Below are positions 7,993 through 10,651 of a DNA stretch of 34,408 nucleotides, piece after piece. Origin of the DNA: Bacteroidota bacterium. GTDB lineage: Bacteria; Bacteroidota; Bacteroidia; Flavobacteriales; Schleiferiaceae. The notes under the pieces are model-generated. The model did not search any database and was not told the origin of the DNA. It saw only the letters and a program-made list of their open reading frames with translations. The stretch lies in assembly GCA_003045825.1 (NCBI GenBank), contig PZPA01000012.1, positions 1 to 34,408 of the forward strand, read 5' to 3'. Positions within the stretch are counted from its first letter, which is position 1; the number at the start of each line of letters is the position of its first letter. The position numbers were made by a program, and so were the translations under genes.

Positions 7993-8028
7993 AAAAAAAA
8001 GCCCGGCGCACAGCGCCGGGCTTTTTTT
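7993..8028. terminator. Strong bidirectional intrinsic terminator
   Basis: Perfect 9-bp GC-rich stem GCCCGGCGC (8001-8009) / GCGCCGGGC (8013-8021) with a three-base loop, flanked by eight A's on the left and seven T's on the right. It can end the valS-DUF4287 transcript rightward and the 8110-8484 gene leftward. The 80 bases that follow (8029-8109) hold nothing I can identify. Confidence 0.93.
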
Positions 8029-8109
8029 GTTACGGACCGCCTCCGCTTACTAAATAAATTCAATCCTCGGTATGAGGCGTTTACTCAGGTCAAGGGCTGG
8101 TTTAGATAT

Positions 8110-8484
8110 TTAGTTGGGTTGAATGCTTACGGTGAACAATGCTTTACATACACGCTTCGCTGTCCTTCCTTTCTTACGTCTACTCACATAAATTTTTAAG
8201 TCGATTGTTCGCTTACCATTAGGCGCAAAGCTGCTCTCCACAAACAGGTCTTCATTCAATTCCGCGGCGCTATACATTTTCACGTCCAATTGTTCGAATT
8301 TCTCTTTAAATGATGCATTTAGAAGCAGCTGTTCCATTCGGCGACTTTTAACTTCATTTAGGATCTGCATCAAATTCCATATGGATAATTCACCATTGGC
8401 ATCGACCATGGACGCTGTGATGTTGTAACTGTCTTTCGTTCTGAGCGGTCCAGTTTTTCTAGCGGTATTGATGAAATTCTTCAT
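8110..8484 (-). CDS. Hypothetical protein, about 124 aa, possibly hotdog-fold
   Basis: I cannot assign a family with confidence. The start is the ATG at 8484 (MKNFINTARK); a longer reading begins at TTG in the terminator T-run. The pattern, ANGELSIWNLMQILNEV followed by a long amphipathic helix, then LFVESSF and TIDLKIYVSRRKKG and a final CKALFTVSI strand, resembles a small hotdog-fold thioesterase-like domain, but no catalytic residues can be named. No signal peptide. Only 14 bases separate the ATG from a terminator hairpin upstream, which leaves no room for a separate promoter, so expression probably depends on read-through of that hairpin. The bidirectional terminator near 8001 closes the unit. 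Confidence 0.7.
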   Translation of the reverse strand: MKNFINTARKTGPLRTKDSYNITASMVDANGELSIWNLMQILNEVKSRRMEQLLLNASFKEKFEQLDVKMYSAAELNEDLFVESSFAPNGKRTIDLKIYVSRRKKGRTAKRVCKALFTVSIQPN

Positions 8485-8497
8485 TCGTTTTTTAATC

Positions 8498-8527
8498 AAA
8501 AAAAAACGCCCTCACAATGTGAAGGCG
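8498..8527 (-). terminator. Attenuator-type terminator upstream of the 124-aa gene
   Basis: In minus-strand RNA, CGCCUUCAC (8527-8519) pairs with GUGAGGGCG (8515-8507) through nine base pairs including one U-G wobble, with a three-base loop, followed directly by nine U's. It sits between a leader and the ATG at 8484 of the gene it would switch off. The wobble makes it a better helix on the minus strand than on the plus strand, which fixes its direction. Confidence 0.82.
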
Positions 8528-8568
8528 CTTCCGTTATAAAATGGGTTTATTGGTCTATATCACTGCCT

Positions 8569-8646
8569 TCACGTATACATATAGCAACCCTTCCACATAT
8601 AATTGCGGTTCTTGAAGTTGACAATATGTTTGGTTGTGTGTTGCAT
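8569..8646 (-). CDS. Candidate 25-codon leader ORF
   Basis: ATG at 8646 to TGA at 8571-8569. The peptide is basic and its last ten residues are aromatic-rich (YMWKGCYMYT, with three Tyr and one Trp). The stop codon lies inside the antiterminator segment GTGAAGGC (8572-8565), so a ribosome finishing or stalling here would mask it. No Shine-Dalgarno site is visible and the predicted transcript start falls at about the ATG, so translation would be leaderless. Real translation is unproven; the ORF could be chance. Confidence 0.4.
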   Translation of the reverse strand: MQHTTKHIVNFKNRNYMWKGCYMYT

Positions 8647-8651
8647 TGAAA

Positions 8652-8687
8652 TAAAAGTAAGTGTTTTTGAGAATTTCAGCTTTCAAA
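8652..8687 (-). promoter_or_regulatory. Candidate promoter for the leader RNA
   Basis: Minus strand reads TTTG (8687-8684), a 24-base spacer and TACTTTTA (8659-8652), one base off TAnnTTTG. The spacer is longer than the usual 19-21. The predicted start is at about 8646. Confidence 0.4.
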
Positions 8688-8720: not shown

Positions 8721-10628
8721 TTAATTTCTGCGCCAATCGAGCCAGACTTGCCACATCTCTGCCGGTTTTTTACCCTGCAAATCTTTGTGTAATTTTTTCA
8801 AAGCAGGTCTTGGATTATCCATCCCAGCGAAGAGCTTAAGCGTATTTACACTGCTTTTTCGATACGCATCAAGCATTTGCATTTTTTGGCCTTCCGCGGG
8901 GCCCTTAGGCTGGTAATTCGTAGTATTCAAATTTTGCCAATACCATTCTAAATCCTTGGTGGAGACCAATTTCATGGCTTGTAAAGAAGCATAAACATCG
9001 CCTTTTACACGGTAAAGTTCCATCAGTTGCATGGCTGCATTGCCATTGCGAGGAGCAATCTCAATAACGCGTTCGTATAAATCAATTGCTTCACCAATAC
9101 TGCTGTCGTAGCGTTTTACGGCCGCTAATTGGTTAAGGGATAAAATATGGTTAGGGTGAATGCGCAACGCTTCTATAAATGAAGTTTCCGCTTGTGCTAG
9201 TTTCTTCTCTGAGGGTATCTGTCCATTCGCCGCACGCATGTGGCTAAGACCTTCGAAATAGGCCATGGGATTATTGTAAATGTCCATTTCGAAACAAACA
9301 TTCTGTGCCTTTTCGGCATTGATTTGCATGCTTCTTACATTTCCTGACATGTAGCCGTCTAAGCAGTTTTTTGCTGCACGTTCACCTTGAACGCGGTTTT
9401 GCCCAACATAAAGCGCAAATAATCCCGCTACACCAGCGGATAACATACCCACCATTGCGCTAGTTTTTATTGTTGGTTTAGAATGGGCTACAGCAAAACC
9501 TAAGGCAGTAGCCAGAGGGAGTAACATGGTTGCGCGCTCCAAAGGGAATTCACCGAAGCCATAAACAGTAAAACCTACAATGGTGAGCGAAAAAAATAAG
9601 CCCCCATCGTGTCTTATCGTCTTTGTAAAGCCTAGAACGAGTAGCGCTAGGAAGAGTATAGCACCCGCAATACCCGTTTCACTTAGCATCCACAACAAGT
9701 CGTTGTGTGGTCGAAGAATAGACGTTTGTCCACTCATCACACTTTCATTTGTGCCTTTTAGCCCAGTACCGGGGTATTCTATTTTCCACTGGCCGCCACC
9801 AACACCGGATACAGGCTGGTCCATAAACATTTCCCACGATGCATTCCAGTAGTGTAAACGGCTCTGAATAGTGTCGCTGTTAAATATTTTTTCACTCCCT
9901 GCGGCAAAAATGGCTACAACAATTCCAATAGATATCACGCCCATTGCCAGCAAGCCAATGCTTCGACGTTGTGCATTTCCTTTTAAGGTATAGTAGGCTA
10001 CCGCTACGGCCGTCATGGCGAAAGCACCAAGCCAAACCCCGCGAGTCCTCAAAAGAAGAATGCATAAAATAGCTAGACCAACACTAATTCGTTGCATCCA
10101 TAGACCTAGTGGACCATCCTCTTTTGCATTTAAGGCGAGCGGAACTAGCAATAATAAAGTGGCTGCAGCATAGTTTTTATGGGTGAAAAGTGGTCCATTG
10201 GCCAGGTAGATGTTTGATGCCTTATAGGCCTCAACTAGCGAAGGGAGGATGCTTAATCCGGCGATCAACAACGCGACCTGGGCACCAGTAGCCAGGGCGA
10301 GAATACCACTAGATTTTTCTTTTCGAAATAAGGCAGCGCTTAATTGGACCCAAGTAAACAAAAGAGCGATTCGAGCGCCAAAACCAAGCAACTCTGAGAC
10401 AGCACTGACATTTCCAATCTTCGCCAAGGGAAGGAGGAGTATCAGGATAAAGAGTGCAATACTATTTAGGCCCTCACCACCATGCTTTCGCGTCAAAAAG
10501 CTACCGATGCCACCTACAGCCGCAAGAACCGTAATTCGCAGCCAAAGGCCGATGTCCTGACTGCCGGAATCAACAGCAAGTAGCAGTAGCAGAGGCATGT
10601 AGAAAAAGAGGGAGCGCAAAGACTTCAT
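8721..10628 (-). CDS. O-antigen ligase/polymerase-like membrane protein with C-terminal TPRs
   Basis: 635 aa from the ATG at 10628; a reading to 10646 starts at TTG. Residues from about 8 to 415 contain roughly a dozen hydrophobic segments of the Wzy_C/WaaL type in the inner membrane. The family's periplasmic loop is visible as [14 protein letters not shown] near residue 305, with [10 protein letters not shown] earlier. About residues 460-545 form tetratricopeptide-like repeats (a [20 protein letters not shown] unit, then an [20 protein letters not shown] unit). Such proteins ligate or polymerise O-antigen or other glycans; in Bacteroidota some act as oligosaccharyl transferases, so the glycan and acceptor are open. 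Monocistronic, divergent from icmF, with a TAnnTTTG element just upstream. Confidence 0.82.
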
Positions 10629-10643
10629 AAAAATCGATTTGTT

Positions 10644-10651
10644 CAAATATA
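10644..10651 (-). promoter_or_regulatory. -7 element for the O-antigen-ligase-like gene
   Basis: Minus strand reads TATATTTG, a full TAnnTTTG match, 15 bases before the ATG at 10628. No clear TTG at the -33 position. The same DNA lies in the short region before icmF. Confidence 0.5.

Follow-up and report, generated by a model that had tools for sequence, protein, structure and literature searches.

A 34,408-nucleotide stretch of DNA (the window), part of a 1.83-Mb Schleiferiaceae assembly labelled G000, carries on its minus strand what is probably a ribosome-mediated transcription attenuator that works through stalling at a tryptophan (Trp) codon, ahead of a gene for a predicted hotdog-fold protein (Table 1). 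Judged from comparisons of sequence, the element is very likely an attenuator and likely a ribosome-mediated one, and the chance that it is specific to Trp is about even. A sequence-only reading of the window had proposed a terminator/antiterminator switch ahead of a 124-amino-acid gene, and this part of the proposal is upheld. The same reading saw a possible undescribed attenuator or riboswitch-like leader and recognised no known class, but a leader ORF that contains a Trp codon and ends at the antiterminator strand is the anatomy of ribosome-mediated attenuation. Our verdict is that a known kind of element, the leader-peptide attenuator, occurs here in a new setting. Its novelty seems to lie in the gene that it regulates, in a background that is apparently auxotrophic, and in a layout that persists without its sequence.

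We infer the following scheme. Transcription would begin at or near the leader ATG, and ribosomes would make a peptide of ~28 residues that has a Trp codon in its second half. A ribosome that translates to the stop codon would cover segment A, which would allow segments B and C to pair and to terminate transcription ahead of the hotdog gene. If a shortage of charged tRNA-Trp stalled the ribosome near the Trp codon, A would instead be free to pair with B, and RNA polymerase would read into the gene. A second choice may be made between two further pairings, as S1:S2 would leave A free and S2:S3 would enclose it. The terminated leader would itself be a free small RNA.

Table 1. Features of the leader and its downstream gene in the window
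Feature	Positions	Strand	Remarks
TTTG, -33-like	8687-8684	minus	spacer of 24 nt to the -7 box
-7 promoter box, TACTTTTA	8659-8652	minus	matches TAnnTTTG at 5 of its 6 specified bases; leader ATG 5 nt downstream
Leader ORF, MQHTTKHIVNFKNRNYMWKGCYMYT	8646-8569	minus	25 codons plus TGA; probably nearly leaderless; stop inside A
S1	8620-8614	minus	pairs with S2
P0, small hairpin	8608-8593	minus	CCGCA (8608-8604) with TGTGG (8597-8593); RNAalifold consensus
Trp codon (codon 18 of the leader ORF)	8595-8593	minus	TGG in 20 of 20 complete genus leaders
S2 (GGAAGGGG where quoted for G022 and G015)	8592-8585	minus	partner is S1 or S3
Segment A, GTGAAGGC	8572-8565	minus	5' strand of the antiterminator, where the leader ORF ends; invariant in 22 genus leaders; complementary to B
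S3	8547-8543	minus	3' strand of the A-enclosing helix, which has 5 bp in the window and up to 11 bp in relatives
Segment B, GCCTTCAC	8526-8519	minus	common to antiterminator and terminator
Segment C, GTGAGGGC	8515-8508	minus	terminator 3' strand
T run, nine T's	8506-8498	minus	intrinsic terminator
124-aa gene, predicted hotdog-fold protein	8484-8110	minus	AlphaFold2 and Foldseek

Architecture of the leader

The leader ORF was overlooked in the sequence-only reading. In all 20 complete genus leaders, a -7-like box with five of the six specified bases of TAnnTTTG, given as the Bacteroidota-type consensus in PMC7366714, ends 4 to 6 nt upstream of the leader ATG. Because the box ends this close to the ATG, transcription probably starts at the ATG or within a few nucleotides of it, which would give a leaderless or almost leaderless transcript. 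Leaderless mRNAs are put at 5.5% for Flavobacterium psychrophilum in PMC9723704. The promoter earlier proposed at 8687-8652 is plausible; its spacer is long compared with the 18 to 21 nt of relatives having a TTG.

In 18 of the 20 complete genus leaders, the ATG lies 75 nt before A and opens a 28-codon frame that ends GTG AAG GCA followed by TAG or TAA (V-K-A-stop), with A within the last three codons. The window leader has one base less and reaches its stop after 25 codons, and the G008 leader has one base more and runs for 30 codons; both frame shifts are downstream of codon 18, and the frame to the Trp codon is kept. Throughout the genus, the stop codon is at A or just after it. An equally open frame was seen in 8 of 20,000 column permutations for codons 2-25 of the 18 unshifted leaders, and in 110 of 20,000 for codons 2-17 of 20 leaders. 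The leader ORF is established by comparison of sequences, and is presumably translated. Peptide-level selection on the genus leader was not significant, either in codon-position differences (0.31, 0.36 and 0.37) or in a BLOSUM frame score, which was reached by 22 of 300 permutations. An initial candidate, a 13-codon peptide of the form MWKG..VKA, was dropped once the 28-codon ORF was found.

The positions earlier given for A, B, C and the T run were confirmed on the minus strand, as were the pairings claimed for them: B matches A perfectly over 8 bp and C with one wobble. The terminator also lies just ahead of the ATG at 8484, but the distance from the last T is 13 nt rather than the 14 reported. 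Among the genus leaders, the outer pair made by C shows a compensatory change between G-C and A-U.

Upstream complementarity of this kind is rare in the genus and exceeds chance. In a 394-kb sample (220 kb of G021, 140 kb of G016 and the window), 3 of 81 terminator-like hairpins have an 8-mer complementary to the 5' arm at most 120 nt upstream, whereas shuffles give an expectation of 0.2. Each of the three is the present locus, in a different genome. When duplex energy was used with a looser definition of terminators, 4 of 113 were matched by at most 10 of 200 shuffles, and three of these four are again this locus. The only other sampled terminator that pairs upstream better than shuffles (2 of 200) is near position 219704 on the plus strand of contig C23 in G021 (L102), and is a possible second attenuator of the genus.

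Two neighbouring features were also observed in the window. The gene upstream (8721-10646, minus strand) encodes an O-antigen-ligase (Wzy_C) domain with C-terminal TPR-like repeats. Beyond the hotdog gene, between it and a facing DUF4287/DUF5655 gene, a strong inverted repeat at 8000-8030 (GCCCGGCGC..GCGCCGGGC) is flanked by T and A runs and is likely a two-way terminator.

S2 (GGGTTGT) is inside the ORF and can pair upstream with S1 or downstream with S3 (ACAACCC). The helix that encloses A takes the form GGGTTGT../..ACAACCC in most relatives, and in the window joins 8590-8586 with 8547-8543. A different hairpin, earlier thought to present A in its loop (8584-8579 with 8560-8555, CTATAT/ATATAG), is present in the window but is not kept in the alignment of relatives. 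The S2:S3 helix extends further with its own partners than with swapped ones, a result reached in 226 of 20,000 permutations; the eight clade representatives of this analysis were picked by us. On paper, a pseudoknot could contain S2:S3 and A:B at once, and this possibility, together with the extension of S2:S3 by its own partners, would suit a pseudoknotted aptamer of a metabolite riboswitch or of a protein-bound leader. We regard such an aptamer as highly improbable, as the genera share no sequence core beyond the layout and the Trp-bearing ORF, and neither the window nor 13 family loci gave an Rfam match at gathering score, including to riboswitches, the T-box and the Flavo-1 motif that had been suggested for checking. 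A lax Rfam search returned sub-threshold matches only.

Folding of partial leaders is consistent with the attenuator scheme. When a ribosome is masked on the Trp codon and the RNA extends no further than B, A pairs with downstream bases in 20 of 20 leaders, through all eight bases in 17 and through six or seven in G005, G006 and G022. With the ribosome at the stop codon, B pairs with C in 20 of 20. In full-length folds B:C also wins in 20 of 20, even when the ribosome is stalled at the Trp codon, and therefore antitermination must be kinetic. In truncated leaders folded after S3 has been made, S2:S3 takes over in 7, 2 are mixed, and 10 retain S1:S2; the S1:S2 region beats shuffles (z of -2 or lower) in just 9 of 19.

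Some of these folds would also suit a leader that senses translation in general, in which the gene is opened whenever translation slows or fails, Trp being incidental. In 19 of 19 truncated leaders, S1:S2 is dominant until S3 is made. If no ribosome were present, S1:S2 would thus form first and leave A free, and lack of translation would therefore give read-through, the opposite of the trp operon. Similarly, ribosome-free folds ending at B open all eight bases of A towards B in 17 of 20 rows. The Trp codons that bear on this possibility are considered below.

Within the genus, the A:B duplex is equalled by at most 15 of 500 shuffles in 19 of 21 copies tested, although in two of these 19 (G022 and G015) the best duplex runs through S2 and not A. 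In G005 and G006 the duplex does no better than shuffles (119 and 192 of 500, respectively, reach it), and A:B is only 6 bp in the clade of G005, G006 and G022. No A:B covariation occurs within the genus because A never varies there. Pair counts on the genus covariance alignment did not beat shuffles; this alignment mis-registered S2:S3 because the 5' arm of that helix slips by one base between clades. From the genus leaders, RNAalifold recovered only P0 and B:C, and in P0 all cells are paired and substitutions are confined to the 5' side.

Distribution and rewriting of the proposed attenuator

The 124-aa gene is found in 21 of 25 genus genomes as 22 full-length copies, and the leader is present at all 22, cut by a contig end in G014 and G015. 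The sequence-only reading had looked for its counter-evidence in relatives that keep the gene and lose the A/B/C complementarity; this check favours the switch, as all 21 gene-bearing genus genomes have the leader, including the two in which it is cut. Of the four genomes that lack the gene, G004, G010 and G020 keep the O-antigen-ligase-like neighbour and have neither leader nor hotdog gene after it, and in G018 the neighbour was not found. Sequence comparison thus establishes that leader and gene are present together and absent together. In G004 a promoter-like remnant, GACTACATTCATC, remains after the ligase gene (L114), and the loss of leader and gene looks like a deletion. In G011 leader and gene are present twice, as nearly identical copies (L046 and L060, on contigs G011:C25 and G011:C8). 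A 37-residue fragment of the hotdog gene occupies a second place in G013 (G013:C16:202990-203100) and was left out of the count of gene copies.

A covariance model of the leader (R1) matches strongly in 20 genus genomes (21 loci, E of 4e-14 or better) and partially in G014. Among 63 other family genomes it yields only six weak matches (E from 6e-4 to 0.01), which all align mainly through a terminator; weak second matches also occurred inside genus genomes, for example on G019:C63 and G008:C8. A pattern search of the window's own genome with the motif of its relatives found nothing; the window lacks one G of the pattern.

Layout and complementarity, in contrast, trace the attenuator between genera where the genus covariance model finds nothing comparable. 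When 395 genomes of the order, taken from a larger group, were searched with a profile of the hotdog protein, homologues were detected in 37, every one of them a member of the window's family. Among the 23 loci compared outside the genus, 22 have a terminator ahead of the gene and, upstream of it, a short ORF whose end is close to a segment complementary to the terminator's 5' arm; no attenuator was found near the gene in G052. The terminator is 16 to 40 nt from the gene at 16 loci and 134 to 156 nt from it at six loci in two genera, and the leader ORFs of the 22 loci stop 11 to 38 nt after the start of A.

The letters of A and B are unrelated between genera. Where the window's genus has GTGAAGGC and GCCTTCAC as A and B, these segments are GGGAAGCACCTC and GAGGTGTTTCCC in G046, GGAGAAGCA and TGCTTCTCC in G054, GGGGTGCC and GGCGCCCC in G057, TTGGGGCT and AGCCCCGA in G105, and CCAAGGGGG and CCCCCTTTGG in G047. 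The A:B duplex is matched by at most 8 of 500 shuffles at 16 of the 23 loci, compared with 1 of 110 unrelated terminators at no more than 10 of 200. It is weak in G103, G101, G045, G073, G066 and G056 (22, 31, 37, 57, 111 and 149 of 500 shuffles, respectively). Comparison across genera thus documents an element whose sequence is rewritten while its complementarity is kept, and this is the strongest evidence in the sequences that A:B pairing is functional.

A second small ORF of 36 to 44 codons was observed between terminator and hotdog gene at six loci in two genera (L116, L117, L119, L120, L121 and L122, in G046, G070, G062, G051, G065 and G073). Its stop overlaps the gene start as ATGA, it contains Trp in six of six cases, and it ends in LL in five of six. 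No such ORF was found at the 10 other non-genus loci that were checked.

The same comparisons bear on whether the leader is a constitutive short RNA or small-protein gene that ends at the terminator, the hotdog gene being expressed by leaky read-through or from an unseen promoter. The terminator is strong, and the Sinorhizobium meliloti rnTrpL described in PMC7298713 is a terminated attenuator RNA that can act in trans. However, between genera the A:B complementarity is conserved and the peptide sequence is not, the leader always accompanies the hotdog gene in the genus, and a promoter would hardly fit into the few nucleotides that separate the terminator from the ATG. We therefore consider a free-standing RNA or small-protein gene quite unlikely, and favour an attenuator that controls the hotdog gene.

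The product of this gene had been described as unknown, but it has a recognisable predicted fold. AlphaFold2, run with 22 sequences, gave a model (pLDDT 88.6, pTM 0.83) with a long helix, five strands and a short N-terminal helix, which we predict to be a hotdog domain. The best PDB matches in Foldseek are 4HBT-type thioesterases (E of about 1e-7), for example 4zrb, 4k00 and 1lo9. The likeness to these enzymes is in the predicted fold, whereas identity is 6 to 16% in the matches listed and no catalytic column is conserved in the family alignment. Thioesterase activity would call for a conserved catalytic acidic residue; D28 is kept at 90% or more within the genus but not across genera, where M1 alone is invariant and Y114 nearly so. 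Pfam gave only sub-threshold hits, with a hint of Acyl-ACP_TE in 7 of 22 sequences. Nothing was found when PDB sequences were searched with the genus profile, or NCBIfam with the window protein.

Tryptophan codons and tryptophan synthesis

Of 41 leader peptides, 22 from outside the genus and 19 from within it, 40 contain Trp, a count that takes the two copies of G011 once and leaves out G052, which has no attenuator, and the contig-cut leaders of G014 and G015. The lone leader without Trp, in G058, is a 15-codon ORF close to a contig start. Leader starts for this count were set from the listings of the non-genus loci, and in G054 and G040 a longer ORF was taken over the first choice of the script, which had 13 codons and no Trp in G054 and contained one Trp in G040. 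Choices of this kind, like our picking of representatives, tilt the results in favour of the reading proposed here. Genus leaders have one Trp codon and no tandem run, and in the window this single codon is 23 nt before A. Outside the genus, the Trp codon starts 8 to 46 nt before A in most leaders; in G040 it is nearer to A, and in G102 it follows A. Among 11 genus representatives that we picked, Trp is present in all 11 compared with 5.0 expected from in-frame dinucleotide shuffles (P of 1e-4). This is the lowest P of the 20 residues, the next being that of His (0.039).

Conservation of the codon is thus plain from the sequences, and Trp as the cue is suggested by it. A leader that senses translation in general would be compatible with the single Trp codon of genus leaders, but it would not account for the presence of Trp in nearly all leaders, including every genus representative tested, or for the frame to the Trp codon being kept in both frameshifted genus leaders. 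We consider such a general sensor unlikely, and prefer stalling at the Trp codon.

Classical amino-acid attenuators govern genes that make the amino acid concerned. The TrpE domain, TrpA, HisD and IlvD gave no match in any of seven genus genomes, whereas controls matched in 14 of 14, 14 of 14, 13 of 14 and 14 of 14 cases, respectively; the leader therefore has no part in Trp synthesis in this genus. In the family as a whole, TrpA exceeds the cut-off in 2 of 88 genomes. One of these hits, in G107, is a partial match of 58 positions, which leaves full-length TrpA in 1 of 88. The leader could report Trp hunger in auxotrophs, although the assemblies vary in completeness, and genes for His and branched-chain amino acids are missing as well.

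Relation to known attenuators and significance

The trp attenuators of Gram-negative bacteria, as presented for S. meliloti trpL/rnTrpL in PMC7298713, share with the present element a Trp-containing leader ORF and alternative antiterminator and terminator hairpins. The S. meliloti trpL RNA starts with the ATG of the leader ORF (PMC7298713). In that account, trp attenuators have several consecutive Trp codons and precede trp genes, whereas most leaders here have one Trp codon and precede a hotdog gene. The trp operon attenuator is defined by its control of genes that make tryptophan; the gene downstream here is of the hotdog family, in a genus with neither TrpE nor TrpA in the seven genomes searched.

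The ilvBNC attenuator of Corynebacterium glutamicum, as described in PMC11857589, is similar in having a leaderless leader, one strand common to terminator and antiterminator, and an extra anti-antiterminator hairpin. Its conserved control codons are CUU and GUA (PMC11857589), and it differs in serving branched-chain amino-acid synthesis, in its codons and in its phylum. Closer in phylogeny is F. psychrophilum, of the same class of bacteria, for which leader-peptide attenuation is proposed in PMC9723704 from structured 5' regions; these regions precede amino-acid biosynthesis operons, unlike the hotdog gene here. Our literature searches, which covered leader-peptide attenuation, Bacteroidetes, Schleiferiaceae and hotdog proteins, turned up no description of the element.

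The same attenuator logic, with a conserved Trp codon, thus precedes a hotdog gene, in bacteria that for the most part seem incapable of Trp synthesis. Somewhat tentatively, at a little under an even chance, we suggest a Trp-starvation switch that is uncoupled from Trp synthesis, in which a shortage of charged tRNA-Trp turns on a hotdog protein specific to the family, its strands rewritten and its logic kept; in two genera the second Trp-bearing small ORF would be coupled to the gene through the ATGA overlap. The finding suggests that marine and related flavobacteria have a response to amino-acid hunger, and the attenuator offers a handle on an orphan hotdog family.
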